A stretch of 64,000 bases of DNA, from contig NZ_CP083350.1 of the NCBI RefSeq assembly GCF_020035535.1, positions 1,746,501 through 1,810,500 on the forward strand. The letters are read 5' to 3'. This DNA is from Ensifer adhaerens. GTDB taxonomy: Bacteria; Pseudomonadota; Alphaproteobacteria; Rhizobiales; Rhizobiaceae. Below, in pieces: positions 2,347-19,700 of the stretch. The notes beneath the pieces are model-generated. The model had not been told where the DNA came from. It searched no databases and worked only from the letters and a program-made list of their open reading frames with translations. A program made the translations under genes and the position numbers. Every line of letters begins with the position of its first letter. Positions within the stretch are counted from its first letter, which is position 1.

Positions 2347-2589
2347 TCAGGCAATGCCGTCGTCCCCCAGACGGGACAGCCATTCCGAACCGATCTGTTG
2401 GCGACGCAGGACCATGGCTGGGTCTTCCGCATCGAGGCGAGAGCAGATGCGGTAGACTTCGAGTGTTTCAGCATCCAACAAGCCGCGCTGGTAGAAGAAC
2501 ATTGCTGCCGCGTATCGAGCGCGGCCGGACCACTCGATGCCGGGCGCCATCTTGATCATCTCCCAGTGCCGTCTCGTCTCGTCGTCCAT
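2347..2589 (-). CDS. Small conserved-looking hypothetical protein (80 aa)
   Basis: I do not recognise a named family. The start at 2589 (MDDETRRHW) is chosen because it lies 10 bp after the stop of the GcvT-like gene on the same strand, which makes it the last gene of that operon; an upstream in-frame ATG would overlap the neighbour by 65 bp. The product is charged and soluble with no membrane segment or signal peptide. A Trp-, Tyr- and Phe-containing middle (WSGRARYAAAMFFYQRG) looks like paired helices. Its tight placement suggests a role linked to the GcvT-like/FAD oxidoreductase enzymes, possibly as a small accessory subunit, but no function can be assigned. Confidence 0.6.
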   Translation of the reverse strand: MDDETRRHWEMIKMAPGIEWSGRARYAAAMFFYQRGLLDAETLEVYRICSRLDAEDPAMVLRRQQIGSEWLSRLGDDGIA

Positions 2590-2599
2590 GCGCGCGGTC

Positions 2600-3823
2600 T
2601 CAGAAACGGCCGGGCGGATTGGCCGAGCGGCGGTCGAGTTTGACAAAGGGCCGGGCGACGACACGCGCCCGTTTCATCAGTTTCTGATACCGCAGTTCGC
2701 GCAGAGCATAGATTTCGACCCAGAGATCGTCGGTGATCCGGCTGCCGTAGGGGCGCGCAAGGCTGGCAATCGCGATGTTGCGCTTGGCGAGCGGCGACCA
2801 GATCGCCGCCGTGACGAGGCCCACTTCCTTCTTGCCGCGGTGATAGACGATCGCGCCCTCGGCCGGGATGTTGCCCTCGATTTCGAGCCCGACGAGAACG
2901 TGCTTCAGGGCCCGTTTCTCGCGAGCCCGGAAGATGGCGTCGCGCCCGTTGAAGTAGGACTTCTCGGCATCGACCAGCCAGTCGAGCCCGACCTCGTCGG
3001 GCAAGCGTTCGCGGTCAGCGCGAAGCGCGGCTTCGGCGGTGATGAAGTCGGCATTGGTGACGATGAAGCCGGCTTCGATGCGGGCGCGGTTGAGCGCATC
3101 GTAGCCGATCGCCTTCAGGCCGAAACCCGCACCCGCTGCCCACAGCCGGTCCCAGAGGTTGAGCGCGCGCTTGGCATCGACAAAGAGCTCGTAGCCGAGG
3201 TCGCCGGTGAAACCGGTACGCGAGACGGTCATCTTGCCGTCGAGATCGGGAAACTCGGCGAGTTGGAACGGCTTGAGGTTTTCCACGCCGGCAAAGCCTG
3301 CCGCTTCGAGAACTGCAAAGGAGGTTGGTCCCTGCAGCGCCAAGGCAGCAATCTCGCTGGTCTCTTCGTTAATCTCGACGGAAAAACCTGCCGCGCTGTC
3401 GAGAAGCCAGGGCAGGTGCCGCTCCTGGCAGCAGAGGCGGAAATCATCTGCGGCAAGCCGGAAGAGCGTTCCGTCGTCGAGGACATGACCATGGTCGTCG
3501 CACCAGGCCGTGTAGTGCACGCGGCCTATGCCAAGCTTGGCGACGTTGCGCAGTGTCAACCGGTTGAGATAGCGCTCGGCGTCAGGGCCGCGAACGCGGT
3601 ACTTCACCATGGGCGAGATGTCGAACAGGGCGGCCGTCGAGCGGATCGCGAAGTATTCGAGTTCCGTGTCGAAGATCGAATGCGGCGCCTTGTAGCCCGC
3701 CCAGCTGTACCAATCATTGGTCTCGCTGAGTGCGGTAAGGCGTTGATGAAACGGCGTTTCGAGACGGGGCGTCAGGATATGGCCCTGCTGGGCGCGGCGC
3801 AAGGCTGTGAGATGCATCATCAT
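2600..3823 (-). CDS. GcvT-like aminomethyltransferase family protein
   Basis: The 407-aa protein has the glycine-cleavage T-protein fold signature: an N-terminal folate-binding region with FDISPM and YTAWCDDHGHVLDDGT segments, and a C-terminal barrel-like domain. Family members take methyl or methylene groups from amines onto tetrahydrofolate, alone or fused to FAD dehydrogenases such as sarcosine and dimethylglycine dehydrogenase. No GcvH or GcvP gene is nearby, so a catabolic demethylation role is more likely than glycine cleavage. The start at 3823 is chosen because its ATGA overlaps the stop of the upstream oxidoreductase gene and a GGAGA lies about 7 nt before it; a longer frame reaching 4006 would run far into that gene and its N-terminus looks non-native. 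Confidence 0.85.
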   Translation of the reverse strand: MMMHLTALRRAQQGHILTPRLETPFHQRLTALSETNDWYSWAGYKAPHSIFDTELEYFAIRSTAALFDISPMVKYRVRGPDAERYLNRLTLRNVAKLGIGRVHYTAWCDDHGHVLDDGTLFRLAADDFRLCCQERHLPWLLDSAAGFSVEINEETSEIAALALQGPTSFAVLEAAGFAGVENLKPFQLAEFPDLDGKMTVSRTGFTGDLGYELFVDAKRALNLWDRLWAAGAGFGLKAIGYDALNRARIEAGFIVTNADFITAEAALRADRERLPDEVGLDWLVDAEKSYFNGRDAIFRAREKRALKHVLVGLEIEGNIPAEGAIVYHRGKKEVGLVTAAIWSPLAKRNIAIASLARPYGSRITDDLWVEIYALRELRYQKLMKRARVVARPFVKLDRRSANPPGRF

Positions 3824-5373
3824 GCACGTTTCTCCGATAGGACCTGCCGGGCGGCGAGCAGGCCGGGCAGGCCGGAAATGCCGCCGCCTGGATGCGAGCC
3901 GGCGCTGGCGAGATAAAGACCCCGAAGCGGCGTCGCGTAGCCGGACGCTGCGTTGACCGGGCGGTTGACAAGCAACTGATCGGCCTGCAGTTCGCCATGA
4001 TGCCAATGTCCCCCAGGCAGGTTGTAGCGCGCCTCGATATCCAAGGGGGTCATGAGGCTCGTGGCGACGATGCTCACGCCAAGACCGGGGGCATAGCTTT
4101 CGAGCGTCTCAAGTACGATCTTCTGGAATGCCGGCTTGCCCGTCTCCCAACCGTCGGCAAGCGCGTAGGGCGCGAATTCGACGAGCGCCGAAAGCGTACA
4201 ACCGCCAGCCGGCGCCAGCGAGGGATCGCCGAGGCTCGGCAAAGTGATCTCCATCACCGGGTCGCTGGAAAACGCGCCGTATTTCGCCGGGTTGAAAGCT
4301 TCTTCGACATGGTCGATCGAACGGGCGATCACCAGCCGACCGCGGAGATCAGCCGCCGCGACGCCGGGAAAGTTCGGGGGGCGGTCGAGCGCCAGGTCGA
4401 GCTTGGCGACATTGCCCTTCGAGCGGATGTTGCCGATGGCGCGGCGGAAACCGGTGCCGATCTCGGCGGCGTCGGTGAGGGCGAGGAACGTGGCCTTCGG
4501 ATGGATGGCTGCGACGATGGCTCCGGCTTCGAGCGTCTCGCCGGTGGAGAGGACGACACCGCTGGCACGGCCGCGATCGGCGACGATGCGGGAGACCTGC
4601 ACGCCCGTCCTGATCGTGACGCCGGCGCGGGTCGCCGCGCTCTCGAAGGCCGTCGCCACCGATCGGCCGCCGGCGCCGGCGACGACCTGCGCGCCGGTCA
4701 CGCCGTGCATTTCTCCGGTGAGGCGGTAGTAAAGGCCGAGCAGCGACGTCGGTGAGCGGGGTCCCAGATGGATACCGAGCGTGGCGTCGAAGGCAAGCAG
4801 CGCCTTCAGCCGGTCGTCGGTCAGGTACTCGTCGGCGATGTCCGCTACATTCATCAGCAGCATGCGCAGGAAGTCGCGGCTTTCCTCTCGTCCCTTGCGC
4901 AGAAGGCCGAGACCGGCCCCGGCGAGCGTCGCGAAATCCGCCAGCGCCATCCCGCCGATCTCCGGCGGCCTGCGTTTCAGGAACCGCTTCAGGATCGCGG
5001 CCTGGAAGGTCAGCTTGCCGCGCAGGTCCTGGAAGCGCCTGGCTTCTTCTTCGGTCACCCCGTCGATGGCTTCTCCGTAGCCGCCTCGCAGCACGGCATG
5101 ACGCCCCGTCGGCGAAAGCACCACCGTCGGTGCCTCGCCCTCGCTGCCACTTTCGAACGAGAGAGCTGCTGCGACTTCCGGATCGAGCCGGTTGACGATG
5201 TGGGCAAGGCCAGGGCTCGCATAGCCGGGATGGAAGGCGTAGCTGCGCGCGGCGCCGCCGAGCATGTCGCTGGCTTCCAGGAGCAGGACTTTGCGGCCTG
5301 AGCGGGCGAGGAAGGTCGCAGCGGTCAGGCCATTGTGGCCGCCGCCGATGACGATCGCATCAAATGACGTCAT
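3820..5373 (-). CDS. Phytoene-desaturase-like FAD/NAD(P) oxidoreductase (second of pair)
   Basis: This 517-aa flavoprotein has an N-terminal dinucleotide-binding motif GGGHNG at residues 10-15, an LLEA strand end, and a GG-aromatic segment typical of the CrtI/monoamine-oxidase-like superfamily. The C-terminus carries the conserved LYLASAGSHPGGGISG FAD contact. No carotenoid synthesis genes are nearby, so a carotenoid role is unlikely; oxidation of an amine or of an acid side chain is a better guess. It overlaps the preceding paralogue by 14 bp and the GcvT-like gene by 4 bp, so the three are probably translationally coupled. Confidence 0.85.
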   Translation of the reverse strand: MTSFDAIVIGGGHNGLTAATFLARSGRKVLLLEASDMLGGAARSYAFHPGYASPGLAHIVNRLDPEVAAALSFESGSEGEAPTVVLSPTGRHAVLRGGYGEAIDGVTEEEARRFQDLRGKLTFQAAILKRFLKRRPPEIGGMALADFATLAGAGLGLLRKGREESRDFLRMLLMNVADIADEYLTDDRLKALLAFDATLGIHLGPRSPTSLLGLYYRLTGEMHGVTGAQVVAGAGGRSVATAFESAATRAGVTIRTGVQVSRIVADRGRASGVVLSTGETLEAGAIVAAIHPKATFLALTDAAEIGTGFRRAIGNIRSKGNVAKLDLALDRPPNFPGVAAADLRGRLVIARSIDHVEEAFNPAKYGAFSSDPVMEITLPSLGDPSLAPAGGCTLSALVEFAPYALADGWETGKPAFQKIVLETLESYAPGLGVSIVATSLMTPLDIEARYNLPGGHWHHGELQADQLLVNRPVNAASGYATPLRGLYLASAGSHPGGGISGLPGLLAARQVLSEKRA

Positions 5374-6982
5374 GGGCCGGGCTCATCTTGTCGGAGGGAG
5401 TGTGGCGCAGATCGCGCAGGATTTCGGCGGCGGCGTTGCGGCCGGGGGCGCCCATGACGCCGCCGCCCGGATGGGTCGAGGAACCACAGATATAAAGGCC
5501 GCGCACCGGGCTGCGATACTGCGCATAACCGGGGACCGGGCGGTTGAAGAGCAACTGGTCGAAGGTGAGTTCGCCCTGGAAGATATTGCCTTCGGTCAGC
5601 CCCACTTCCTGTTCGATCTCGCGCGGCGTGCGCACCTCCATGTGCAGGATGCGTTCGCGGAAACCGGGCGAGTAGTCGCTGATCTGCTTGACGACCGTCT
5701 CGGCGAAAGCGTCGCGGTCGGCATCGGTCCAGTCCCGGCCTTCCACCTTGGGCGGACAGTACTGAACGAAGCAGGAGACGAAGTGTTTTCCCGGTGGCGC
5801 CATCGTCGGATCGAGCGTTGTCGGGATCATCATGTCGACGAAAGGATCGGCCGACCAGCGCCCGGCTTTCCAGTCGTCATAGGCGCGCTCCATGCGCTCG
5901 ATACTGTCGGTGAAATGCAGGTCGCCGCGAATGCAGGAGGAACCCGCCGGCAGGGCCGGGAACTCCGGCAGACTGTCGAGCGCGATGTTGAGTTTGCCGG
6001 AGGAGCCGCGCATCTTGAAGTGTCTGACCCGGTGGACGAAGCGCTCCGGCAGATCGTCCTCGTCGACGAGCTTGAGGAAGGTGCGTTTGACGTCGGCATT
6101 GGAGACGACGAGATTGCCGTGCACCTCTTCGCCATCGACAAGCACTGCACCATGGGCGCGGCCGCTGCGGGTCAGCACCTTGGCGACATCGGCGCCGGTG
6201 CGGATGGTGCCGCCCGACGCCTGGAACGACGAGGCGAGCGCCTTGGTGACGGCGCCCATGCCGCCACGGGCATAACCCCAGGCGCCGACCGAACCGTCGA
6301 CCTCGCCCATATAATGATGCAGCAGTACATAGGCCGTGCCCGGCGACATCGGACCGAGTGCCGTGCCGATGATGCCGGAAAGCGCGAGGTAGGCCTTGAT
6401 CACGTCGGTCTCGAAGTACTCGTCGAGGAAATCCGCAATCGACATGGTCCAGAAGCGCAAGGTTGCCGCCATCTCGGCCGGTGAAAATTCGCCGAACTTC
6501 TTTGCGAGATAGATGAGTTCGGAGATATCGCGTGGCTTGAAGCTGAACGGGTCCGGTGCTGTGCGCATGAGCAGCGGCTGGATGAAGCGGCACTGCCGGG
6601 TGACGTCGCGCGCATAGCGGTCATAGGCTTCCGCATCGCGCTTCGAGTAGCGGGCAAACTCGCGGCGATGGGAATCGTGGTCGCGGTAGGAGGCGAGATA
6701 GTCGCCGTCGCGGGTGAAAACGGCGCCGCCCTCGTAAGAAATCACTTGCAGCCCATGCTTCGGCAGTTCGAGATCGCGCATGATCTCCGGGCGGAAGAGC
6801 GAACAGACGTAGGAACAGTTGGAATAGAGGAAGCCGGGGGTGAGTTCGCGGCTGGTGGCCGCCCCCCCAACCCAATCGTTCTTTTCGAGGACGACGACAT
6901 TCAGCCCGGCGCGCTGCAGATAGCAGGCGGCGACCAGGCCGTTATGACCTCCTCCAATCATCACCACGTCGTATTTTTTCAT
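5360..6982 (-). CDS. Phytoene-desaturase-like FAD/NAD(P) oxidoreductase (first of pair)
   Basis: This 540-aa protein has GGGHNG at residues 10-15, WVGGAATS near residue 37 and a C-terminal LYICGSSTHPGGGVMG FAD motif. It is clearly homologous to the next gene, so the pair may act as a heterodimer or on successive steps. The start at 6982 (MKKYDVV) is preferred to the one at 7042 because the fold begins there and GGGAG lies just upstream. It is the first gene of the leftward operon 6982-2347, and its promoter region holds the 7044 operator box. Confidence 0.85.
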   Translation of the reverse strand: MKKYDVVMIGGGHNGLVAACYLQRAGLNVVVLEKNDWVGGAATSRELTPGFLYSNCSYVCSLFRPEIMRDLELPKHGLQVISYEGGAVFTRDGDYLASYRDHDSHRREFARYSKRDAEAYDRYARDVTRQCRFIQPLLMRTAPDPFSFKPRDISELIYLAKKFGEFSPAEMAATLRFWTMSIADFLDEYFETDVIKAYLALSGIIGTALGPMSPGTAYVLLHHYMGEVDGSVGAWGYARGGMGAVTKALASSFQASGGTIRTGADVAKVLTRSGRAHGAVLVDGEEVHGNLVVSNADVKRTFLKLVDEDDLPERFVHRVRHFKMRGSSGKLNIALDSLPEFPALPAGSSCIRGDLHFTDSIERMERAYDDWKAGRWSADPFVDMMIPTTLDPTMAPPGKHFVSCFVQYCPPKVEGRDWTDADRDAFAETVVKQISDYSPGFRERILHMEVRTPREIEQEVGLTEGNIFQGELTFDQLLFNRPVPGYAQYRSPVRGLYICGSSTHPGGGVMGAPGRNAAAEILRDLRHTPSDKMSPAHDVI

Positions 6983-7043
6983 GTGGCTCCCCCTGTCGTT
7001 GATCAAAAAAATGACACGGAAAGCAGAATGTTGTCTATCCATT

Positions 7044-7067
7044 TTGAATGAGCGTTCAGCAAATATG
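7044..7067 (+). promoter_or_regulatory. TGAA-N6-TTCA operator box 1
   Basis: The core TGAATGAGCGTTCA lies at 7045-7058 in the divergent region between the oxidoreductase operon and the methyltransferase operon. Over 24 bases it matches box 3 (15589-15612, opposite strand) at all but one position: TTGAATGARCGTTCAGCAAA plus TATG. A BetI-like regulator is encoded 900 bp away. The TGAA/TTCA arms suit TetR/BetI-type recognition, but binding is inferred. Confidence 0.7.
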
Positions 7068-7129
7068 TTGCAATCTGCTGATAATGCGATAGGATTTTTA
7101 GCGAGGGGTCGAGACGGCTTGGAGGTCTG

Positions 7130-7939
7130 ATGTCATCGGTCGATCAGGATGCGGAACATGCCGTCGAATATGACGATACGGCCATCCGTTTCCTCGAGGT
7201 GCTCTGGGGTGAGGGCTATCTTTCGCCCGGCGGTCCCGACGAGGTCGATCGCGTGCTTGATGGGGTCGAGATCGCGGGCAGACGCGTCCTCGATCTTGGC
7301 TGCGGCGCCGGCGGCGTGACGCTGCATATCGCCCGGACCTATCATCCCCTTGGGATCACCGGCTTTGACGTCGAGGCGCCGGTCGTCGCGCATGCGCGCG
7401 CGGAGGCGGCGCGCAATGGCGTTGCGGACGTGACTTTCGTTCAGGCGCCGGCTGGCCCGCTGCCTTTTGTCGACGGCAGCTTCGATGTCGTCTTCTCGAA
7501 GGACGCGTTGGTTCATGTTGCGGACAAGTTGGCCGTGTTTCGCGAAATCTACCGTGTGCTCTCGCCCAGCGGCATCTTCGTCGCCTCCGACTGGTTGATC
7601 TCCCACGATGGCGAGCCGTCCGATGCGATGAAGGCCTATCTCGCGGCCGAGGGGCTGAGTTTCGGCATGGCTTCGGCGGCGACGTATCTCACGGCGATGG
7701 CAGAAGCGGGTTTTGTCGAGACGCGTGCGCAAAGCCGCAACGAATGGTATCGCGACGTCGCGCGGCAGGAGCTTTCGCGACTGCAGGGAATATTGCATTC
7801 GGCGGCCGTTGCGGCGGTCGGCGAGGCCTATGTGGCCAAGAATATCCGGACCTGGGCGGCCATGCAGAAGGTGCTTGACAGTGGGGAGCATTGTCCCACT
7901 CATCTGCGTGGCATCAAGCCGATGCGGCGGGACGCATGA
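7130..7939 (+). CDS. SAM-dependent methyltransferase, phosphoethanolamine-N-methyltransferase-like
   Basis: This 269-aa class I methyltransferase has motif I DLGCGAGG at residues 55-62. The segment [10 protein letters not shown] near residues 26-35, SKDALVHV near 123-130 and a C-terminal [13 protein letters not shown] follow the pattern I recall for phosphoethanolamine N-methyltransferases of Plasmodium and plants (FGENYISSGG, SRDAILHL, KMQRW). The true substrate may be another small amine. GGAGG lies 5 nt before the start. It heads a rightward operon with the regulator (1-bp gap) and a periplasmic binding protein. A methyl-adding enzyme in an apparently demethylating cluster is unexpected. 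Confidence 0.8.
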
Positions 7940-7940
7940 C

Positions 7941-8639
7941 ATGCATCTGCGCCTGAAGAAGATCGATACGGCGGTACGGATGAAACTCACCCCTGAAGTG
8001 CAGGAAGCGGCGGAAGGCGAAAAGCGTGGCCGCAAGGCCTCGAAGGAAACCCGGCGGCAACAGCTGATCGAGGCGACGATCGATTCGCTCGCAAAGCGCG
8101 GCTACTCGGAAACGACCCTTGCCGACGTTGCCGATGGCGCCGGCCTTTCGCGCGGCATCGTCAACTTCCATTTCGAGAGCAAGGAAAAGCTGCTGATCGC
8201 CACGCTGCAATATATGGCCGACGAATACGCGGCCAATTGGGGCGCGGCGCTGGAGAAGGCCGGTGACAAGGCGGCGGCCCAGCTCTGGGCCCTTGTCGCC
8301 TGTGATTTCGATCGCAAGATCTGCACCAAGCGCAAGCTCGCGGCCTGGTGCGCCTTCTGGGGTGAGGCGAAATCGCGGCCGACCTATCAGGCGCTCTGCG
8401 GCGCGCGCGACGTCAAATACCAGGAGATCTTCCTGGCGCTCTGCCAGAGGCTGAAGGACGAGGGCGGCTACGCCTATGAGCCCGAGGGCATGACGCTGGC
8501 GCTCTGCGCCTGCATGGAAGGGCTGTGGCTGAGGCTGATGATGGGCGACGGGCTGACGCGCGAAAAGGCGCATGCGGCGGCCGTCGAATATCTGCTCGTC
8601 GCCTTCCCCAGGCATTTCACCCGGGAAGGGCCGAAATAG
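7941..8639 (+). CDS. TetR-family transcriptional regulator, BetI-like
   Basis: The 232-aa protein has an N-terminal TetR DNA-binding domain: helix-turn-helix around residues 59-82 with TTLADVADGAGLSRGIVNFHF, followed by KEKLL. The effector domain includes FDRK and LAAWCAFWGEA, matching the BetI subgroup that senses choline-like compounds. The start at 7941 follows the methyltransferase stop by one base; an ATG at 7980 giving 219 aa is also possible. It is the likely reader of the three TGAA-N6-TTCA boxes at 7.0, 12.8 and 15.6 kb. The inducer is unknown. Confidence 0.88.
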   Translation: MHLRLKKIDTAVRMKLTPEVQEAAEGEKRGRKASKETRRQQLIEATIDSLAKRGYSETTLADVADGAGLSRGIVNFHFESKEKLLIATLQYMADEYAANWGAALEKAGDKAAAQLWALVACDFDRKICTKRKLAAWCAFWGEAKSRPTYQALCGARDVKYQEIFLALCQRLKDEGGYAYEPEGMTLALCACMEGLWLRLMMGDGLTREKAHAAAVEYLLVAFPRHFTREGPK

Positions 8640-8679
8640 GGAACAACAACGCCGGAACGGCCGAATAGAGGAGGTTGGC

Positions 8680-9762
8680 ATGACATTGGTGAACGCGTGC
8701 AGGCAAATCTTGGGAGGCGCCGTCATCGCCTCGCTTGTCTCGACCACCGCCCTGCCGGCGCACGCCGCCGGAAACCTCACGATCTTCGACTGGTCCGGCT
8801 ACGAGGATCCGGCCTTCCACCCGTCCTACACCGCCAAGCACGGAAGCGAACCGGACTTCAGTTTCTTCGGTGACGAGGAGGAGGCCTTCCAGAAGCTGCG
8901 CTCCGGCTTCAAGGCCGACCTTGCCCATCCCTGTTCGCAGAGCGTGGCGAAGTGGCGCGAGGCTGGACTGATCGAGCCGCTCGACACTTCGAAACTGACC
9001 TACTGGAACGACATCGATCCGGGCATTGCCGCGATGAAGGGGCTGATGACGACGCCGGACGGAAAGGCCTGGCTGCTGCCCTTCGAATGGGGCAACACCG
9101 TGCTCACCTACCGCACCGATACGGTCAAGGAAGATGAGATCAAGTCGCTGCGCGCCTTTGCCGATCCGAAGTTCAAGGACCGGGTCTCGATCGGCGACAA
9201 TGTCGATGACGCCTATGCGCTGGCGAGCCTCGCCATCGGCGTCAAGGACTGGACGACGATGACCGACGAGCAGTTCAAGCAGGCCTCCGATTTCCTGCGC
9301 GAAGTGCACAAGAACGTCCGCCTCTACTGGACCGACAACACCGACTTGAGCCAGGCGATCGCCAGCGGCGAGGTCGACCTTGCCTGGGCGTGGAACGAGA
9401 CGGCAACGACCCTGCAGGCCGATGGAGTTCCGGCGGCGATCAAGAAGGATACGACCGAGGGGCTTTCGACTTGGGTCTGCGGCTATGTCCGCCTCAAAGG
9501 GGCCGAAGCGCCGCTCGACGAACAATATGACTACCTGAACTCGATCTCCGATCCCGCGATCACGGCCTATATGGTCGAGTCCTGGGGGTATGGCCATGCG
9601 AACGCCCGCGGCATGGCGCAGGTCGATCCGAAGATCCTGGCCGACAAGGGCTATGCCGACATCTCGAAATTCCTGGCCAACACGCTGTTCCAGTCGCCGA
9701 TGCCGGTCGAGCTGCGCCAGCGCATGATCGCCGAGTTCGAGAAGATCAAGTCGGGCTACTGA
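8680..9762 (+). CDS. Periplasmic substrate-binding protein, PotD/PotF-like
   Basis: The 360-aa protein begins with a Sec signal peptide of about 30 residues ending ALPAHAA, followed by LTIFDWSGYEDP, typical of the spermidine/putrescine-binding family. AGGAGG lies 6 nt upstream of the chosen start. It probably feeds the PotABC-like transporter encoded convergently at 9807-12668. Family members bind polyamines, but also opines, betaines and other cationic amines, so the ligand is open. It is co-directional with the BetI-like regulator after a 40-bp gap. Confidence 0.85.
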   Translation: MTLVNACRQILGGAVIASLVSTTALPAHAAGNLTIFDWSGYEDPAFHPSYTAKHGSEPDFSFFGDEEEAFQKLRSGFKADLAHPCSQSVAKWREAGLIEPLDTSKLTYWNDIDPGIAAMKGLMTTPDGKAWLLPFEWGNTVLTYRTDTVKEDEIKSLRAFADPKFKDRVSIGDNVDDAYALASLAIGVKDWTTMTDEQFKQASDFLREVHKNVRLYWTDNTDLSQAIASGEVDLAWAWNETATTLQADGVPAAIKKDTTEGLSTWVCGYVRLKGAEAPLDEQYDYLNSISDPAITAYMVESWGYGHANARGMAQVDPKILADKGYADISKFLANTLFQSPMPVELRQRMIAEFEKIKSGY

Positions 9763-9772
9763 GAAGCGAAAT

Positions 9773-9798
9773 CGGCGGGACGCGACCGCGTCCCGCCG
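9773..9798. terminator. Bidirectional hairpin between convergent genes
   Basis: CGGCGGGACGCG and CGCGTCCCGCCG are perfect 12-bp inverted arms separated by 2 nt. It fills most of the 44-bp gap between the binding protein and the ATPase gene, which end facing each other. Tails are short (GAAAT and AAACTT), so termination may be imperfect. Confidence 0.7.
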
Positions 9799-9806
9799 AA
9801 ACTTCG

Positions 9807-10895
9807 TCAGTCGGCAACGGCGACCAGCGCATCCGGATCGTAGGCCAGCCGTATCGTGTCGCCGACCGGAATGTCGTCCGCGCCGAAATTGTTGGTCTCC
9901 GATACCGAAAGCGGCTGCTCGAGGCCAGGGATATCGACGATCAGATGGGTGATCTCGCCGAAATAGTGTCGATCAACGACCTTGCCGGCGACCTCGAAAT
10001 CGGAGCGCGCGTCATCCCACAGCACACGCAGCCGTTCCGGGCGAATGCCGATCGTCGCCGTGCCGTTGCGGGCAGCAAAGCCGAGCGGCTTGTCGATGGT
10101 GACGCCGCCGAAGCGCAAGGTCTCGACCGAAATGCGCGTCGCCGTCTCATTGGTCACCCGCGCTTTCATGAAATTCATGCCGCCGAGAAAATCGGCCACC
10201 TGGCGCGTGTTGGGGCGCTGGTAGATCTCCTTCGGCGTCGCCACCTGCGCGATCCGGCCACCGAACATCACGGCGATGCGGTCCGAAAGCGCCAGCGCCT
10301 CATACTGATCGTGAGTGACGAGGATGAAGGTGATGCCGACGGCGCGCTGCAGCGTGCGCAGTTCCACCTGCATTTCCTCGCGCAGCTTCTTGTCGAGCGC
10401 GGAAAGCGGCTCGTCGAGGAGCAGCACCTTCGGTCGCATTACCAGCGCGCGCGCGAGCGCCACCCGTTGGCGCTGACCGCCTGACAGTTCATGCGCCCGT
10501 CGCTTGCCGAGATGGCCGAGCCTGACCTGTTCGAGTGCGGCGCCGACACGGCGGCGTTCCTCGGTCGCATCGAGCTTCAGGCGCTTCAGGCCATAGGCGA
10601 CATTCTCCTCGACATCGAGATGCGGAAAAATCGCGTAGTTCTGGAAGACCATATTGGTAGGGCGGCGGTTCGGCGGCACGCCGATCACCGATTGGCCGTC
10701 GATGCGGATGTCGCCTTCTGTCGGCGTGTCGAAGCCGGCGATCGAGCGCAGAAGCGTGGTCTTGCCGCAGCCCGAAGGGCCGAGCAGCGAGAAGAATTCG
10801 CCGGCGGCGATGCCGAGCGAGACGTCGTCGAGCGCCTTGTAGATGCCGTAGAACTTGCTGACGCCTTCGATTGCGATCGTCGGTGTTTCAGCCAT
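9807..10895 (-). CDS. ABC transporter ATP-binding protein, PotA-like
   Basis: The 362-aa ATPase has Walker A GPSGCGKT at residues 39-46, the LSGGQ signature at 137-141, Walker B LLLDEP at 158-163 and a C-terminal TOBE-like regulatory region of about 100 residues, as in PotA/FbpC-type importers. It energises uptake through the two permeases encoded upstream on the same strand and overlaps the PotC-like gene by 8 bp. Confidence 0.92.
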   Translation of the reverse strand: MAETPTIAIEGVSKFYGIYKALDDVSLGIAAGEFFSLLGPSGCGKTTLLRSIAGFDTPTEGDIRIDGQSVIGVPPNRRPTNMVFQNYAIFPHLDVEENVAYGLKRLKLDATEERRRVGAALEQVRLGHLGKRRAHELSGGQRQRVALARALVMRPKVLLLDEPLSALDKKLREEMQVELRTLQRAVGITFILVTHDQYEALALSDRIAVMFGGRIAQVATPKEIYQRPNTRQVADFLGGMNFMKARVTNETATRISVETLRFGGVTIDKPLGFAARNGTATIGIRPERLRVLWDDARSDFEVAGKVVDRHYFGEITHLIVDIPGLEQPLSVSETNNFGADDIPVGDTIRLAYDPDALVAVAD

Positions 10896-11712
10896 GCTGC
10901 GCTCCCTGTGCCCTGAGCCTGTATTCGGCGCGGCGGCGTATGATTTCCGAAAGAGTGAGAAGCAGGATCGAGATGAGCAGCATCAGGCTGCCGAGCGCGA
11001 GCACGCCCGGTAGCTTTGCGGCAAAGCGGAGCTGGCCCCAGATATAGACCGGCAGCGTCGGCTCGGTTCCCGAGAGGAAGAAGGCTAGGATGAACTCGTC
11101 GAGCGACACCGTGAAAGACACGAGCAGGCTGGAGACGATCGCCGGCGCGACGACGGGCAGGGTCACCCGGCGGAAGGTGCCGATCGCCGTTTCGCCGAGA
11201 TCGAGCGAAGCCTCTTCCAGCGACCGGTCGAAGCCGTCGAAGCCTGAGATCAGTACCGACATCGCATAGGGCAGGCAGAAGACCACCTGGCCGAGGATGA
11301 CGGTGACGAGCGAAAGCTCGATGCCGAGCTGCAGCAGGATCATCAGCAGCGAGACCGCCACGATGATCTCGGGCAGGAACAGGGGCGCCATGATCAGGCC
11401 TGTCGCCGGCCCTTTGCCGCGGAAGCGATAGCGCGTCAGTGCGCGCGCGGCGCAGATGCCGAGAATGGTGCTCATGAGCGCCACGGAGACGCCCACGATC
11501 ATGCTGTTGCGTGCCGCTTCCAGCATGGCCGAATTGCCCCAGAGCGTGACGTACCACTTGGTGGTGAAGCCGGCCAGCGGGAAGGTCGTGGTGGAGGCGT
11601 TGTTGAAGGAAAAGATCGGCAGCAGCAGGATCGGGAAATAAAGGAAGAGCAGGTAGAGGCCGACATAGGCCGGCAGCCAGCGGGACTTCGGGATGCCGTG
11701 ACGACCGCTCAT
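10888..11712 (-). CDS. ABC transporter permease, PotC-like
   Basis: The 274-aa integral membrane protein has about six transmembrane segments and a cytoplasmic EAA loop (LEEASLDLGETAIGTFRRVTLP) that contacts the ATPase. It is the second permease of the polyamine-type importer. It overlaps the PotB-like gene by 4 bp (ATGA) and the ATPase gene by 8 bp, showing one operon. Confidence 0.9.
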   Translation of the reverse strand: MSGRHGIPKSRWLPAYVGLYLLFLYFPILLLPIFSFNNASTTTFPLAGFTTKWYVTLWGNSAMLEAARNSMIVGVSVALMSTILGICAARALTRYRFRGKGPATGLIMAPLFLPEIIVAVSLLMILLQLGIELSLVTVILGQVVFCLPYAMSVLISGFDGFDRSLEEASLDLGETAIGTFRRVTLPVVAPAIVSSLLVSFTVSLDEFILAFFLSGTEPTLPVYIWGQLRFAAKLPGVLALGSLMLLISILLLTLSEIIRRRAEYRLRAQGAQHG

Positions 11713-12668
11713 TTCGCCAGCCTCATTGTGAGTTTCAGCGCGAGGACGACGAGCCCCGCCATCGCCGAGACGACCACCATGGTCGTCACCGAAAGTGCCG
11801 CGCCGAGCGGCCAGTTGGCGCCCTTGCCGAACTGTGCCTGGATCGCGGTCGCGATCATCACCCCATCCTTGCCGCCGACGAGCTTCGGCGTCACGTAGTC
11901 GCCGACGGTCGGGATCATCACGATCAGGAAGGCGGAGATGACGCCCGGCAGGGAAAGCGGCAGGGTGACACGCAGGAAGCTCATCACCTTGTTGTCACCG
12001 AGATCGTGCGCAGCCTCGATCAGCGAGCGGTCGACCTTTTCCAGCGACACGTAGATCGGCAGGATCGCAAAAGCCGCCCAGCTGTGGACGAGCGTAATGA
12101 CGACGGCATTGGAATTGTAGAGCAGCGTCGTCAGCGGCTTGTCGATAAGGCCGATCGATAGAAGCCCCGTATTCATCACGCCGCCATAGCCGAGGATGAC
12201 CTTCCACGACATCACGCGCAGAAGATAGCTCGTCCAGCAGGGCACGGTGATCAGGAACAGCCAGAGGTTCTTGTGCACGCCGCCATGGAAGGAAATGAAC
12301 CAGGCGATCGGATAGGAGACCGTGACGGTGACGACGCTGACGACCAGCGAGATGACCAGCGAGCGCACCAGGAGGTCCTGGTAGATCGGTTCGCCAAGGG
12401 CGGTGCGATAATTTTCGAGGGTAAAGGTACGGTCGATCGTCAGATAGTCCTGGGTCCAGAAACTGTAGGCGATGACGATCAGGACGGGCAGGAAGAGCAG
12501 GGCAAGCGCGTAAAGCAGTGTTGGTGAGATGAGAGCGAGGCCGCTGGCCTCTTCGCTGGCAATCCAGCGTGTGCGGCTTTTCGGTGGTTCTGCGGGCCGA
12601 TGCTCCACCCCCGCGCCCGACAGGACTGCCATCAGCATGTCCTCGCGCGATATGCTGAGCGTGGACAC
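11709..12668 (-). CDS. ABC transporter permease, PotB-like
   Basis: The 319-aa permease has a cytoplasmic N-terminal tail of about 40 residues, six predicted membrane helices and the EAA loop (LIEAAHDLGDNKVMSFLRVTLP). It is the first gene of the leftward transporter operon, which therefore shares the promoter region holding operator box 2 with the divergent aminotransferase gene. An internal ATG 10 codons downstream is an alternative start. Confidence 0.88.
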   Translation of the reverse strand: MSTLSISREDMLMAVLSGAGVEHRPAEPPKSRTRWIASEEASGLALISPTLLYALALLFLPVLIVIAYSFWTQDYLTIDRTFTLENYRTALGEPIYQDLLVRSLVISLVVSVVTVTVSYPIAWFISFHGGVHKNLWLFLITVPCWTSYLLRVMSWKVILGYGGVMNTGLLSIGLIDKPLTTLLYNSNAVVITLVHSWAAFAILPIYVSLEKVDRSLIEAAHDLGDNKVMSFLRVTLPLSLPGVISAFLIVMIPTVGDYVTPKLVGGKDGVMIATAIQAQFGKGANWPLGAALSVTTMVVVSAMAGLVVLALKLTMRLAK

Positions 12669-12785
12669 TGGAAATGCAGCGATCGCTTCATTCTATCCAT
12701 CCCGTGGCGGTATCCGCCTTTTGTGTTCCCTCAATTAGCAAAACGCAAATCGGGATTGAACGCAAGCGGAATTTCTGCAATATTG

Positions 12786-12803
12786 ATTGAATAGCCATTC
12801 AAT
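12786..12803 (+). promoter_or_regulatory. TGAA-N6-TTCA operator box 2
   Basis: ATTGAAT and ATTCAAT form perfect 7-bp arms around AGCC, with core TGAATAGCCATTCA at 12788-12801. It sits in the 208-bp divergent region between the PotB-like gene and the aminotransferase gene, and it is the most symmetrical of the three related boxes. It is an inferred target of the BetI-like regulator. Confidence 0.68.
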
Positions 12804-12876
12804 AAAAGTAGTCATTATCGATTGTTATCAACTTGTTGAGTGGAGGAAGACACCGGATTTAATGGGAGATTCCGTG

Positions 12877-14289
12877 ATGGCCGCGAAGCTCGATCCTGCA
12901 GTTGTGCACAACCGCGAGGCGGATGAAACCGCCGCGCTCGCCGCGCGGCATCTCGTCCAGCCTTGGCCTGTCGCCGGCAGCATCGGCGCCGAGTCGCGCG
13001 GGGCGATCGAAAGCGGCGACGGAATCTATGTGACGGACGGCGAGGGGCGCCGACTGATCGATGGGCCTGCCGGCATGTGGTGCGTCAATGTCGGTCATCG
13101 CCGGGCCGAGCTGGCTCAGGTGCTGCATGATCAGGCGCTGGCTCTCTCCTACAACTCGCCATGGTACACGACGAGCACGCCCTCGGTTGATCTCGCCGAA
13201 CGACTGGCAGCACAGGCGCCCGTAGACCTCGGCCACGTGTTCTACACGACGGGCGGATCCTCGGCGGTTGAGACGGCCCTGCGCTTCATGCAGTTCATGA
13301 ACAATGTGCGCGGCCAGCCGGACAAGAAGCTGATCGTCTCGCGTCAGGGCGGCTATCACGGCTCCACCTATCTCTCGGCCTCGCTCAATGGTCGGCCGCG
13401 CGATCACGACTGGATGGACAGCGCTTCGGATCAGGTGATCAAGCTCACCTGTCCGAACCCCTTCCGCCGCCCGACGGGTCAGTCGGAAGCCGAGTTCTGC
13501 GATTTCCTCGTTGCGGAGTTCCGCGCCGTGATCGAAGCGCGCGGTGCCGAGAAGATTGGCGCCTTCATCGCCGAGCCGGTCATGGCATCCGGTGGCGTCA
13601 TCGTGCCGCCGGCGGGCTACCTTCCGCGCATGCGGGCGCTTTGCGCCGAAAACGACATCCTCTTCATCGCCGACGAGGTGGTGACGGCTTTCGGCCGCCT
13701 CGGCGAGGTCTTCGCCTCCAAAGCAGTCTTCTCGATCGAGCCCGACATGATCACCTTCGCCAAGGGGGTAACGTCAGGCTATTTCCCGCTCGGCGGCGTG
13801 ATGATCTCGTCGAAACTTCTGGAAACGCTGCGCCAGTCCAATCATTCCGACGCGATGTTCGCCCATGGCCTCACTTATTCCAGCCACCCGATCGGCTGTG
13901 CGGTGGCGCTCAAGAACCTCGATATCCTGGAAGGCGGGCTGCTCGACCATGCGCGGGCGATCTCCGGTCATTTCCAAGCGGCACTGAAACGGCTCGAAGC
14001 GCTGCCGCTCGTTGGCGAGGTGCGTGGCCTGGGGTTGATGGCCTGCGTCGAATGCGTCGCCGATCGCGTCAGCAACAATCCGCTGATGCTCGATTTGGAA
14101 GTCGGCAAACGCATCGATCGGCACTGCCAGGAACTCGGCCTGCTCGTGCGGCCGCTGATCAACATGTGCGTGATGTCGCCACCGCTGACGATCACGACGG
14201 GCCAGATCGACGTCATGGCCGATATCCTCGATGTCAGTATTCGAAGGACGATGGACGAACTGGTGCGCGAGGGGCTCTGGAAGGGCTGA
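12877..14289 (+). CDS. Class III PLP-dependent aminotransferase
   Basis: The 470-aa enzyme shows the class III pattern: TGGSSAVETALR for phosphate binding, LFIADEVVTAFGR with the cofactor-binding Asp, and the Schiff-base Lys at about residue 296 in FAKGVTSGY. These enzymes transfer omega-amino groups (beta-alanine, GABA, putrescine, taurine) to pyruvate or 2-oxoglutarate; the donor here is unknown. The start at 12877 is chosen for GGGAG 8 nt upstream; 12862 is a weaker alternative. A strong terminator follows, so it is probably monocistronic under operator box 2. Confidence 0.88.
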   Translation: MAAKLDPAVVHNREADETAALAARHLVQPWPVAGSIGAESRGAIESGDGIYVTDGEGRRLIDGPAGMWCVNVGHRRAELAQVLHDQALALSYNSPWYTTSTPSVDLAERLAAQAPVDLGHVFYTTGGSSAVETALRFMQFMNNVRGQPDKKLIVSRQGGYHGSTYLSASLNGRPRDHDWMDSASDQVIKLTCPNPFRRPTGQSEAEFCDFLVAEFRAVIEARGAEKIGAFIAEPVMASGGVIVPPAGYLPRMRALCAENDILFIADEVVTAFGRLGEVFASKAVFSIEPDMITFAKGVTSGYFPLGGVMISSKLLETLRQSNHSDAMFAHGLTYSSHPIGCAVALKNLDILEGGLLDHARAISGHFQAALKRLEALPLVGEVRGLGLMACVECVADRVSNNPLMLDLEVGKRIDRHCQELGLLVRPLINMCVMSPPLTITTGQIDVMADILDVSIRRTMDELVREGLWKG

Positions 14290-14342
14290 TGGTGGCATGA
14301 AATGCCTCGGCCCCGCCAGCATTCCCCGGCGAGGCCGATTTC

Positions 14343-14373
14343 AGGGCCGGAGAAACTCCGGCCCTTCTTTTTT
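14343..14373 (+). terminator. Rho-independent terminator of the aminotransferase gene
   Basis: AGGGCCGGAG and CTCCGGCCCT form a perfect 10-bp stem with an AAA loop, followed by TCTTTTTT. It lies 53 nt after the stop codon. Confidence 0.9.
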
Positions 14374-14382
14374 GTTTCGGTT

Positions 14383-15579
14383 TTAGCGCGTGGTCATCGT
14401 CGCATTGACGCCGGCTATTTCCTCTTCACGCGGCGCCTGATCCAGCGTCATGACGGGCAGAACGGCCCGAAGATGATCGTGGTGGGTGCGCACGCCGTAT
14501 TCGAGGTCGGAGAGATAGAATCCGCCGAAGGCTTTCGACGTCATCGACTCGTTCGACCAGATCGTCAGCTGCACGTCCTCGGCCTGGGTGTCGCGGTCGA
14601 TGCGGAAGGCGAGGTAGCGGGCGAGCCGCTGCTGGCGCGTCTCACCGGGATAGCGATAGATGCCGCCGCGTAGCAGCGTTTTGCCCGTTGCGAGCGGGAA
14701 CTCTTGGTAGAACTGCACACTTTCCGGCGTCACCGCGATGACCGCGTTCGGAAACAGGCCAAAATAGATCCACGCCTTGCGCAGCCGCTCGGGCAGGTGC
14801 GTCGCTTCCGGCGCGACGCTGACATATTGCTTCACGCTCCAGCGCCGGCCGGCATGCGGATTGTAGGTCGCGAAGGAGCGGCAAAGCCCGTTGACGAAGG
14901 GCTCGTCGTAATAGGTCGAGCCGTAGAGATCCTGCAGCGCCGGATGGGCCATGGCGACATGGTAGCCCTCATTGTCGACGTCGCGCACGGACTTCCAGTT
15001 GACCGGGCTTTCCTGCGTCCAGATGCCCTGGGTGGGCACCATGTTGTCCGTCCCATAGTGCCCGAGTTCCTCGGCGAAGGGCCGCATGACCTCGGCGACC
15101 GACGGCTGCGGACCGGGACGGAAGCGGATGAAGACGAAGCCCATCCAGACCTCGAGTTCCAGCGGGATCAGCCCGAAGGCCTGCTTGTCGAGCGGCGGAA
15201 AGGAGCGTGGGCGCGCGGCGCCGCGCAGCGTTCCGTCGAGATTGTAGACCCAGCCATGGAACGGACAGACCAGTGCGTTGCGGCAGCTGCCCTTGTCGTC
15301 GACGACGACGCGGGAGCCGCGGTGGCGGCAGATATTGTGAAATCCGCGGAGCGTGCCGTCCTGGTCGCGCAGGATCAGTGCCCGCTCGCCGACGACGTCC
15401 ATGGCGACGTAATTGCCCGGCTCCGGCACGTCGGACACATGGCAGGCGATCTGCCAATGCTGCCTGAAGACATGCTCCTTCTCGAGCTCCAGCAGGGCGT
15501 CGCTGTGGTAGCACCAGCCGGGCAGCCCACGGCGATCCCAGTCATTCGGAACGGAAATGTCGCGGACCAACTCGTTCAT
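14383..15579 (-). CDS. Rieske-type oxygenase, alpha subunit
   Basis: The 398-aa protein binds a Rieske 2Fe-2S cluster through C84-x-H86 and C105-x2-H108 (CRHRG and CPFHGW), and mononuclear iron through H207 and H212 in DNEGYHVAMAH. The arrangement suits ring-hydroxylating or N-demethylating oxygenases such as the carnitine, glycine betaine and stachydrine enzymes. The start at 15579 is preferred because GGAGA lies 6 nt upstream; 15591 lacks a ribosome site. No ferredoxin reductase partner is encoded in the window, so electrons must come from elsewhere. Operator box 3 lies just upstream of its start. Confidence 0.9.
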   Translation of the reverse strand: MNELVRDISVPNDWDRRGLPGWCYHSDALLELEKEHVFRQHWQIACHVSDVPEPGNYVAMDVVGERALILRDQDGTLRGFHNICRHRGSRVVVDDKGSCRNALVCPFHGWVYNLDGTLRGAARPRSFPPLDKQAFGLIPLELEVWMGFVFIRFRPGPQPSVAEVMRPFAEELGHYGTDNMVPTQGIWTQESPVNWKSVRDVDNEGYHVAMAHPALQDLYGSTYYDEPFVNGLCRSFATYNPHAGRRWSVKQYVSVAPEATHLPERLRKAWIYFGLFPNAVIAVTPESVQFYQEFPLATGKTLLRGGIYRYPGETRQQRLARYLAFRIDRDTQAEDVQLTIWSNESMTSKAFGGFYLSDLEYGVRTHHDHLRAVLPVMTLDQAPREEEIAGVNATMTTR

Positions 15580-15588
15580 CACGGTCTC

Positions 15589-15612
15589 CATATTTGCTGA
15601 ACGTTCATTCAA
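15589..15612 (-). promoter_or_regulatory. TGAA-N6-TTCA operator box 3
   Basis: On the minus strand the sequence is TTGAATGAACGTTCAGCAAA plus TATG, differing from box 1 at one base in 24. The core is at 15598-15611. It sits between the Rieske gene and the divergent flavin reductase gene, close enough to the Rieske start to block transcription or early elongation. Confidence 0.7.
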
Positions 15613-15792
15613 TATATCCGGATTTTGCGATGAAGGGAAGCCGGGGCGCCGGCGCGACGGGCGGCGGTCCGGCTTGACGAGGGGCGGCATCGCAACCGAT
15701 GTCGTTAGGCGAAGCCCAACCCTTGTTGGTGGGATGTGGTGTCACTATAGAAATGGCCATCGATCAGGTTCGCCGCGGTGGCAGAGGTTTTG

Positions 15793-16371
15793 ATGGATTC
15801 GCATATTCGTCCCGTTCCGCTCGAAAAGGCCTATCGGTTGCTCAACCATGGCCCGACCGTTCTGGTCTCCGCCCGCCATGCCGGGGTGGAAGACGTGATG
15901 GCGGCGGCCTGGGCCTGTGCTCTCGATTATGATCCGCCGAAGCTGACCGTCGTGCTCGACAGTGCCACCCGCACCCGTAGCCTTGCAGAGGAGGCGGGCC
16001 TATTTTGCATCCAGGTTCCAACCGCGACCCAGGCGGTGCTGACCCATGCGGTCGGCACCACGAGCCTGCACGACGATCCGGACAAGCTTGGCAAAGCCGG
16101 TGTCGCGCTCTTCCACATGCCAGAGCATGAACTGCCCTTCGTTGCCGGCTGTTCGGCCTGGCTGGCGTGTCGGCTGATCTCCGAGCCGTCCATCGAAAGC
16201 CGCTACGACCTGTTTATCGGCGAGATCATCGCCGCCTGGGCGGACGATCGCGTATTTCGGGACGGGCACTGGATGTTCGAGACCGCCGACCCGGCCCTGC
16301 GCAGCCTGCATTATGTCGCGGGCGGACACTTCTACGCGATCGGCGAAGCGATCGACGTATCCTCCCAGTAG
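15793..16371 (+). CDS. Flavin reductase family protein
   Basis: The 192-aa protein resembles the FMN-binding split-barrel flavin reductases: an N-terminal GPTVLVSARHAGVEDVMAAAW segment, a DSATRTRSLAEEAG helix and a late SRYDLFIGEI strand. Such proteins reduce FMN with NAD(P)H or act as FMN-binding electron carriers. The start at 15793 is chosen for AGAGG 5 nt upstream; an in-frame GTG at 15778 is possible. It is divergent from the Rieske gene and may share its regulation, but whether it donates electrons to that oxygenase is speculative, since Rieske enzymes usually use iron-sulfur flavoprotein reductases. Confidence 0.8.
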   Translation: MDSHIRPVPLEKAYRLLNHGPTVLVSARHAGVEDVMAAAWACALDYDPPKLTVVLDSATRTRSLAEEAGLFCIQVPTATQAVLTHAVGTTSLHDDPDKLGKAGVALFHMPEHELPFVAGCSAWLACRLISEPSIESRYDLFIGEIIAAWADDRVFRDGHWMFETADPALRSLHYVAGGHFYAIGEAIDVSSQ

Positions 16372-18484: not shown

Positions 18485-18618
18485 GCGCGTCCGCCTCGAT
18501 CTGGATGTGGCCGCATTTGACGTGTTGCGTCGATTGCAGACAATCTAGGCGATTTCTATGCTGCTGGCGAGCTGGAGCGGCCATTACGGTTCGCGTAGAT
18601 TTCGATTGCGAATTAAGT

Positions 18619-18633
18619 CTATGCAATGCATAG
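18619..18633. promoter_or_regulatory. 15-bp perfect palindrome in divergent region
   Basis: CTATGCA-A-TGCATAG is perfectly symmetric. It lies 40 bp before the PhnD-like start and 135 bp from the GlxA-type start. It may be an operator; the binder is unknown. Confidence 0.4.
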
Positions 18634-18672
18634 GTTTTCGATCGCCTTCACGAGGTCGCTCCGAGGTCGCCC

Positions 18673-19479: not shown

Positions 19480-19700
19480 CGGTTCGGCGGCGACGCTTCG
19501 TGATGGCCGTCGCGAACATCAGGCTCACGGCGATTTTGTAGAACACAAATTACATAGAATAAATATTTTAAGGGCGTGCCGTTTCGCACGACCACTATTC
19601 CCATTTGCGTGTCTTCGCCGCAAAGTCATGCGGCGCGCTCGCCTTGGCCGGCTTTTTATATTGGCGATTGAAATCTATCGCTTTTCCGGCCGGAGACCTT

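Follow-up and report, generated by a model that had tools for sequence, protein, structure and literature searches.

In Pseudomonas, the catabolism of glycine betaine, dimethylglycine and sarcosine depends on the gbc, dgc and sox genes, and rhizobia and their relatives feed on osmolytes and amines of plants and soil. Here, we describe a gene island of Ensifer adhaerens that is probably a single regulon, under a BetI-like repressor of the TetR type, for uptake, N-demethylation and deamination. It occupies positions 2347-15612 of a 64,000-nucleotide stretch (the window, positions 1,746,501 to 1,810,500 of contig NZ_CP083350.1, forward strand) and, according to the window annotation and family searches, comprises eleven genes, a methyltransferase gene and three operator-like boxes. 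Like the Pseudomonas pathway, it appears to combine a Rieske step with flavin- and folate-linked demethylation. However, the later steps would use other enzyme families, an aminotransferase and a Pot-type importer belong to the same regulon, and the regulator is of another type. The island seems to extend a known theme, the BetI-type control of quaternary-amine catabolism.

The comparison can be made protein by protein. The regulator shares with BetI the TetR_N domain and the BetI-type C-terminal domain (PF00440 and PF13977, both above cut-off), and the same type of box accompanies genes for choline uptake and oxidation (L196). However, it scores below both BetI equivalog cut-offs (TIGR03384, 111 of 201; PRK00767, 106 of 118) and is predicted to control another, larger gene set. 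The Rieske oxygenase resembles CntA, Stc2 and GbcA in its Rieske and iron ligand motifs and in its bridging glutamate, and the carnitine monooxygenase CntA is its closest solved chain (146 bits), followed by 3vca and 4qup (127 bits). The chain 4qup, labelled as a demethylase, is presumably Stc2. In contrast to these relatives, the island enzyme has no Cys pair near the iron and is far below the cut-off of the GbcA (glycine betaine monooxygenase) equivalog (129 of 670 bits). The GcvT-like protein shares a folate-binding domain, a DDGT motif and a position beside oxidative enzymes with the GcvT domains of trimethylamine N-oxide (TMAO) demethylase and dimethylglycine oxidase. The difference is that the island has a stand-alone GcvT of 407 amino acids and two separate CrtI-type flavin adenine dinucleotide (FAD) enzymes instead of one fused enzyme.

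The genome that contains the window has 8.1 Mb in three contigs, and the gene calls in the window were verified by profile searches (Pfam, NCBIfam). These searches recovered all the families named in the original prediction, i.e., a GcvT-like protein, two FAD enzymes, a methyltransferase, a BetI-like TetR protein, a Pot importer, an aminotransferase, a Rieske oxygenase and a flavin reductase. Related loci were collected by an alignment search of genome contigs with FAD oxidoreductase 2 (FAD2), of which the best 80 of 586 confirmed are called named loci below; four plasmid loci bring the total to 84. The best named plasmid match, from Ensifer adhaerens, has 87% identity over 94% of the query. 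The features are as follows, with the number of the 80 named loci in which each gene is present.

2347..2589, minus strand: Sm, a conserved open reading frame of 80 amino acids, last gene of the FAD operon; 77 loci
2600..3823, minus strand: GcvT-like tetrahydrofolate-dependent demethylase/aminomethyltransferase (PF01571, 5e-57); 77 loci
3820..5373, minus strand: FAD oxidoreductase 1 (FAD1), CrtI/CrtO-type; 80 loci
5360..6985, minus strand: FAD2, CrtI/CrtO-type, bait of the locus and genome searches; present in the named loci by construction
7044..7059, plus strand: box 1, operator-like palindrome in the divergent region between FAD2 and the methyltransferase-TetR-binding protein unit
7130..7939, plus strand: S-adenosylmethionine-dependent class I methyltransferase (PF13847/PF08241), a dispensable member; 62 loci
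7941..8639, plus strand, alternative start 7980: BetI-like TetR repressor (TetR_N and TetR_C_6); 80 loci
8680..9762, plus strand: PotD/PotF-like solute-binding protein (family searches, PotD alignment); 73 loci
9807..10895, minus strand: PotA-like ATPase of the ATP-binding cassette (ABC) type (family searches); 68 loci
10888..11712, minus strand: ABC permease (PF00528), named PotC-like by position and conserved with the island; 66 loci
11709..12668, minus strand: ABC permease (PF00528), named PotB-like by position and conserved with the island; 66 loci
12787..12802, no strand assigned: box 2, operator-like palindrome in the divergent region between PotB and the aminotransferase
12862..14289, plus strand: class III (omega-type) aminotransferase, PRK07036 equivalog (679 bits, cut-off 618); 69 loci
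14383..15591, minus strand: Rieske oxygenase alpha subunit, start called at 15591, though a start at 15579 behind GGAG fits the relatives better; 34 loci, many loci ending before its position
15597..15612, minus strand: box 3, operator-like palindrome immediately before the Rieske start
15778-16371: flavin reductase, beyond the Rieske gene and outside the conserved set; 0 loci

As had been predicted, three TGAA-N6-TTCA boxes are present in the three divergent regions, and boxes 1 and 3 are identical at 23 of 24 bases. Their 16-base cores are TTGAATGAGCGTTCAG (box 1, plus strand), TTGAATAGCCATTCAA (box 2, palindromic at 14 of 16 positions) and TTGAATGAACGTTCAG (box 3, minus strand). By itself, the short TGAA-N6-TTCA form is weak evidence: it occurs three times in the window against 0.47 expected, a count that 3 of 100 shuffles reached, and at 71 places in the whole genome against 20 for a reversed control. 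The extended box was used instead. With zero mismatches, TTGAATGARCGTTCA matches only boxes 1 and 3 in the genome. When up to one mismatch is allowed, TTGAATGNNCRTTCA matches 10 distinct places, all three boxes included, whereas the reversed control matches 1. The extended box is therefore rare genome-wide, and the objection that the boxes might be frequent without any link to the regulator does not hold. The proposed scan for more targets yielded seven further one-mismatch places in this genome; five of them fall within a listed mechanical open reading frame and two outside. The loci of seven other TetR homologues in the same genome have no site at up to two mismatches.

The box recurs across related loci. 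A box was called where the extended palindrome TTGAATGNNCRTTCAA occurred with at most two mismatches of 14 informative positions in the 250 bases upstream of a gene. By this measure, 83 of 84 loci have a box before FAD2, 62 of 64 have one before the aminotransferase (in the region that faces the importer) and 29 of 29 have one before the Rieske gene. The misses are L056 for FAD2 (3 mismatches) and L089 (4) and L109 (3) for the aminotransferase. Four control genes have no upstream box at all (GcvT 0/81, PotA 0/71, solute-binding protein 0/76, PotC 0/70; in total 0/298). In the fifth control, FAD1, the two hits in 83 loci (L057, L131) both arise because the coordinates of FAD2 were misassigned to FAD1. 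Shuffled upstream regions contain a box in at most 0.4% of cases. The boxes also persist when the genes around them move: the importer is on the other side of the island in 7 of the 66 named loci with PotB, and the region between PotB and the aminotransferase retains a zero-mismatch box in all 7, while Rhizobium SL42 (L058) has a different gene order with all three boxes kept.

Co-occurrence in genomes, which is free of the bias of loci collected with a bait, points in the same direction. In a sample of the family with one genome per genus (101 genomes; orthologues called at E <=1e-200 for FAD2 and E <=1e-120 for Rieske), FAD2 is found in 21 and Rieske in 25 genomes. All 21 hold both genes, which share a contig and are separated by 4.5 to 23 kb (Fisher p 5e-18, without correction for phylogeny). 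Within the genus, the same 7 of 16 genomes carry both FAD2 and Rieske; in an order-level sample outside the family, 14 of 199 genomes have the Rieske gene. The 25 genomes with Rieske contain 43 distinct exact boxes, of which 39 are at most 15 kb from FAD2 or Rieske. The other 76 genomes of the family contain 20 exact sites, in 15 genomes (0.06 per Mb). The genes are accordingly co-conserved, both in the 80 named loci and in the 101 family genomes, as the original prediction needed them to be. Because of the box footprint, the rearranged loci that retain their boxes and the co-occurrence of FAD2 and Rieske, we regard the island as a conserved regulon, most likely of its own BetI-like repressor and not of a true BetI. 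The footprint across loci, together with the rarity of the extended box, supports this assignment at the level of sequence.

The regulon had been predicted to have six units, the sixth being the flavin reductase gene. We find five. The flavin reductase was rejected as a member since it is absent in all 19 named loci with at least 900 bases beyond the Rieske gene and is patchy in the genus, where 6 of 16 genomes have it. It adjoins the island in just two of them (the window genome and G001), occurs without the island in G005, G009 and G010, lies on another contig in G002 and is missing from four island-bearing genomes. It also adjoins the island on an Ensifer adhaerens plasmid (L055). We consider it a bystander. 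The methyltransferase, which the original prediction placed in an operon with the regulator and the binding protein, is a common member, but it is dispensable.

From the boxes, gene set, protein families, motifs and pattern of part swaps, which are all computed, we infer direct binding by the TetR protein, the direction of control, the order of the reactions, the number of methyl groups and the class of substrate. The three boxes and the divergent TetR gene suggest simple repression with induction by the substrate. When no ligand is present, the TetR protein would occupy the three TTGAATGNNCRTTCAA-type palindromes and keep five units shut, namely FAD2-FAD1-GcvT-Sm, methyltransferase-TetR-solute-binding protein, PotB-PotC-PotA, the aminotransferase and the Rieske oxygenase. 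The boxes would be released by an inducer, which is probably the quaternary or N-methylated amine that the Pot-type importer would take up, or else a compound formed early from it. The Rieske oxygenase could then attack first, most likely taking the first methyl group off a quaternary ammonium as formaldehyde, after which the two FAD enzymes and the GcvT-like protein would remove further N-methyl groups as methylene-tetrahydrofolate. Finally, the resulting primary amine would be deaminated by the aminotransferase, whose part in relatives would be played by an amine oxidase or a different class III transaminase.

Conserved motifs and solved relatives of the enzymes speak for such a pathway. The residues C88, H90, C109, H112, H211, H216 and D362 of the Rieske motifs and the bridging E208 are invariant in 14 sequences, with D362 assigned as the iron carboxylate by position and not from a structure, and the Rieske motif is present in 35 of 35 sequences. 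E208 corresponds to E205 of CntA, the bridging glutamate (PMC10952381), and so the enzyme has this feature of the group V Rieske oxygenases that act on quaternary ammonium compounds. A Cys-X-X-Cys pair is reported in some group V members (PMC10952381); in the island enzyme, Gly209 and Val212 are invariant in the 14 sequences and the pair is absent. The nearest solved relative of the GcvT-like protein is TMAO demethylase, through its folate domain (177 bits), and the DDGT motif is found in 88 of 88 sequences. The GcvT-like protein is below the curated equivalog cut-offs for glycine-cleavage GcvT and TMAO demethylase (206.6 of 300; 165.5 of 235.85; 261 of 1100). The closest solved chain of the aminotransferase is 3i5t.

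The importer is likewise below the curated cut-offs (PotA, 360 of 482; polyamine subfamily, 352.6 of 355.6; PotD, 79 of 582). We take the ligand residues of PotD to be E36, D168, E171 and D257 (acidic) and W34, Y37, Y85, W229 and W255 (aromatic). At the acidic positions, the solute-binding protein has G40, N174, D177 and C267, so that only one of four is acidic (D177 for E171). At the aromatic positions, W38, Y41, W238 and W265 are kept and Y85 is replaced by Q87. This residue pattern would suit one ammonium group better than a diamine.

Relatives of the island exchange some of these parts for others. In L177, the Rieske gene comes after an amine-oxidase-family protein, and behind this Rieske gene the opposite strand encodes two enzymes of the trimethylamine dehydrogenase (TMADH)/histamine dehydrogenase family. 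L178 has a BetI-type TetR gene that faces an enzyme of the TMADH/histamine dehydrogenase type with a box (2 mismatches) between them, and the Rieske gene has a perfect box; L140 has an enzyme of this type beside a full FAD/GcvT set. Another class III transaminase is found in L139, L148, L150, L162 and L174. An amine-oxidase-family gene is present in 40 of 92 loci, and in L159 it lies between PotA and the solute-binding protein. Four genomes have Rieske but lack FAD2. The first (G025, L160) has methyltransferase, TetR, aminotransferase and Rieske genes and another Pot importer, with a 2-mismatch site before the aminotransferase. The second (G094, L161) has TetR, aminotransferase and Rieske genes and another Pot importer, with a 2-mismatch site before Rieske. 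The third (G125, L162) has a Rieske gene, a GntE/HemL-like class III transaminase, TetR, methyltransferase and a Pot importer, with a 2-mismatch site before TetR, and in the fourth (G127, L163), where the contig end cuts the locus, a perfect box stands at the Rieske start. These part swaps fit best with the uptake of a quaternary or N-methylated amine that is deaminated and loses its N-methyl groups step by step. They support the originally predicted sequence of uptake, oxidative demethylation and deamination; the substrate itself we propose rather than observe.

On this basis, we put forward a broader idea, with slightly less than even confidence. The island would be one form of a widespread, modular regulon for a trimethylammonium amine, with the BetI-like repressor, the Rieske oxygenase and a deaminating enzyme as its core. 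The later demethylases (the CrtI-type FAD pair with GcvT, or TMADH-type enzymes) and the deaminases would be interchangeable. CrtI/CrtO-type flavoproteins, which are known for their role with carotenoids, would here be N-demethylases that feed folate one-carbon units.

Several findings weigh against a single regulon for uptake, demethylation and deamination. No dedicated Rieske reductase gene was recognized in the island, and a methyltransferase in a regulon for demethylation is unexplained, having no clear role. Many of the 84 loci are close relatives and their counts are therefore not independent. The TMADH/histamine-dehydrogenase-type enzymes of L178 and L140 score higher against histamine dehydrogenase (826 and 644 bits), which is a deaminase, than against TMADH (573 and 518 bits), and therefore may replace the deamination and not the demethylation. 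In the fetched stretches, L160 and L161 have Rieske, aminotransferase and TetR yet no FAD/GcvT genes, and L148, L149 (a short contig) and L150 have FAD/GcvT but no Rieske. Among ten distant Rieske loci (L170-L179), five (L171, L172, L174, L177 and L179) have no site at up to two mismatches, and the sole site of L175 lies inside an amine oxidase frame; L173 has one such site in its TetR/Rieske region, and L170, L176 and L178 have good sites. In four genomes of the genus, the Rieske match crosses one TGA, leaving an open frame of 398 amino acids.

Among more specific readings, the one that fares best is a special case of the proposed regulon, and we consider it possible, although doubtful. In this case, the regulon would belong to the route of carnitine, gamma-butyrobetaine and glycine betaine: the Rieske oxygenase would demethylate a carnitine-derived or carnitine-like betaine, the FAD/GcvT enzymes would finish the demethylation, and the aminotransferase would take the demethylated omega-amino acid, e.g., gamma-aminobutyric acid, or glycine. 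The carnitine 3-dehydrogenase family (E <=1e-120; 45 of 61 matches above cut-off) is represented in 25 of 25 genomes with Rieske against 36 of 76 others (p 5e-7), and in 25 of 25 against 30 of 57 when genomes of at least 3.7 Mb are compared (p 5e-6), both tests being uncorrected for phylogeny. Beside the island, 92 loci include a CoA ligase in 6, a crotonobetainyl-CoA-hydratase-like gene in 3 and a carnitine dehydrogenase in 2, and in G125 relatives of these three and an acyl-CoA dehydrogenase lie about 13 kb or less from Rieske. Nevertheless, the low GbcA score of the Rieske oxygenase argues against this route, the carnitine-type genes in L071, L087 and L200 showed no box, and in the window genome the carnitine dehydrogenase is on a different contig (C1). 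The carnitine-type neighbours may be taken as a lead to the class of trimethylammonium acids, but not as proof.

A polyamine or aryl-alkyl amine without a quaternary nitrogen is an unlikely substrate. The Rieske and FAD enzymes would then hydroxylate or dehydrogenate it, and the aminotransferase or an amine oxidase would deaminate it, which would agree with the Pot-type importer, the frequent amine-oxidase-family genes and the histamine-dehydrogenase-like enzymes of the relatives. However, a role for the GcvT-like protein is difficult to see in the absence of a methyl or methylene donor, and the binding protein keeps four aromatic but only one of the four acidic ligand residues of PotD.

Slightly less probable again is that the Rieske oxygenase splits off trimethylamine, as in the chemistry of CntA, so that the FAD pair and GcvT demethylate trimethylamine to methylamine and the aminotransferase acts on the carbon remnant. 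CntA as the nearest solved Rieske chain, TMAO demethylase as the nearest relative of GcvT and the two TMADH/histamine-dehydrogenase-family enzymes near Rieske in L177 would all be in keeping with this. Against it stand Gly209 and Val212 in place of the CntA Cys pair, the awkward aminotransferase step and the related enzymes of L178 and L140, which are nearer to histamine dehydrogenase. The least probable reading, that the boxes belong to another, true BetI and the island extends choline control, draws on the zero-mismatch palindrome before the choline importer genes and near the choline dehydrogenase of G117 (L196), but it is hard to reconcile with a 15-base form whose exact matches in the window genome are confined to the island (seven other places have one mismatch), with the site-free loci of the seven other TetR homologues, with the island's own TetR in 80 of 80 loci and with an L196 TetR that is not shown to be a true BetI.

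For the preferred reading, a regulon of the island's own repressor, the meaning is as follows. Between roughly a fifth and a quarter of the one-per-genus family sample carries the island or its Rieske gene (21 and 25 of 101). If the reading is true, the island represents a new route by which a quaternary amine yields a carbonyl compound and one-carbon units bound to folate, and CrtI-type flavoproteins have a role as demethylases. The ligand of the repressor and of the binding protein would then name the substrate. A literature search of titles and abstract starts, with most subscription journals outside its coverage, found no description of such a set of genes or of its reactions. Each part is from a known family, but the complete regulon seems to be undescribed, as do its box and the exchange of its modules.

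The box class extends beyond the island. We inspected thirteen stretches with outlying boxes, five in genomes with Rieske and eight from the fifteen genomes that have a site but no Rieske. In L196, the zero-mismatch box (~6056) has a TetR gene followed by choline dehydrogenase on one side and choX, choW and choV on the other; the choline genes are above their cut-offs (TIGR03414, TIGR03416, TIGR03415, betA), and the TetR protein has no NCBIfam match at 1e-30. Thus, the boxes support a regulon of the island but are not private to its regulator, and the choline locus would fit a class of repressors that watch quaternary amines. Passages of PMC10952381, PMC12478193 and PMC6790063 gave no BetI operator sequence. 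In G085 (L199:7596), a second Pot-type importer operon beside the island has its own upstream box (1 mismatch) and is a probable further target. The same palindrome type with the centre GCGC precedes hydantoinase/oxoprolinase A and B genes in G123 (L197, ~4883 and ~9963) and G035 (L198, ~5977). A perfect palindrome lies beside the start of an unrelated TetR-type gene in G025 (L188:6041), far from the Rieske gene of that genome. In L191, a GbcA-like Rieske gene has a box immediately before it (score of its product, 276 of 670 bits). Apart from L191, L196, L197, L198 and L199, the thirteen stretches (eight in number) showed no pattern. L178 contains a natural fusion of regulator and enzyme, in which a BetI-type TetR and a second Rieske oxygenase form one frame of 590 amino acids with no stop between them (17719-19491, minus strand).

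Other observations concern the small Sm frame and the neighbours of the island. Sm has no match in a Pfam search, and in distant relatives a stretch that resembles it occurs inside DMSP (dimethylsulfoniopropionate)-lyase-family proteins after the Pot genes (L139:25623-26498, L172:14234-15091). In two of the genomes without FAD/GcvT at the locus, a PF00144 (Beta-lactamase-family) protein is encoded near Rieske (L160:10756-12063, L161:7598-8821). The island of Rhizobium SL42 (L058:22726-36300) adjoins a rhizopine-like set that consists of a MocE-family ferredoxin, a fatty acid desaturase, a Gfo/Idh/MocA oxidoreductase, purU and folD. A gene of the M19 membrane dipeptidase type is near the island in 27 of 92 loci (e.g., L099:14734-15915), mostly from Mesorhizobium.

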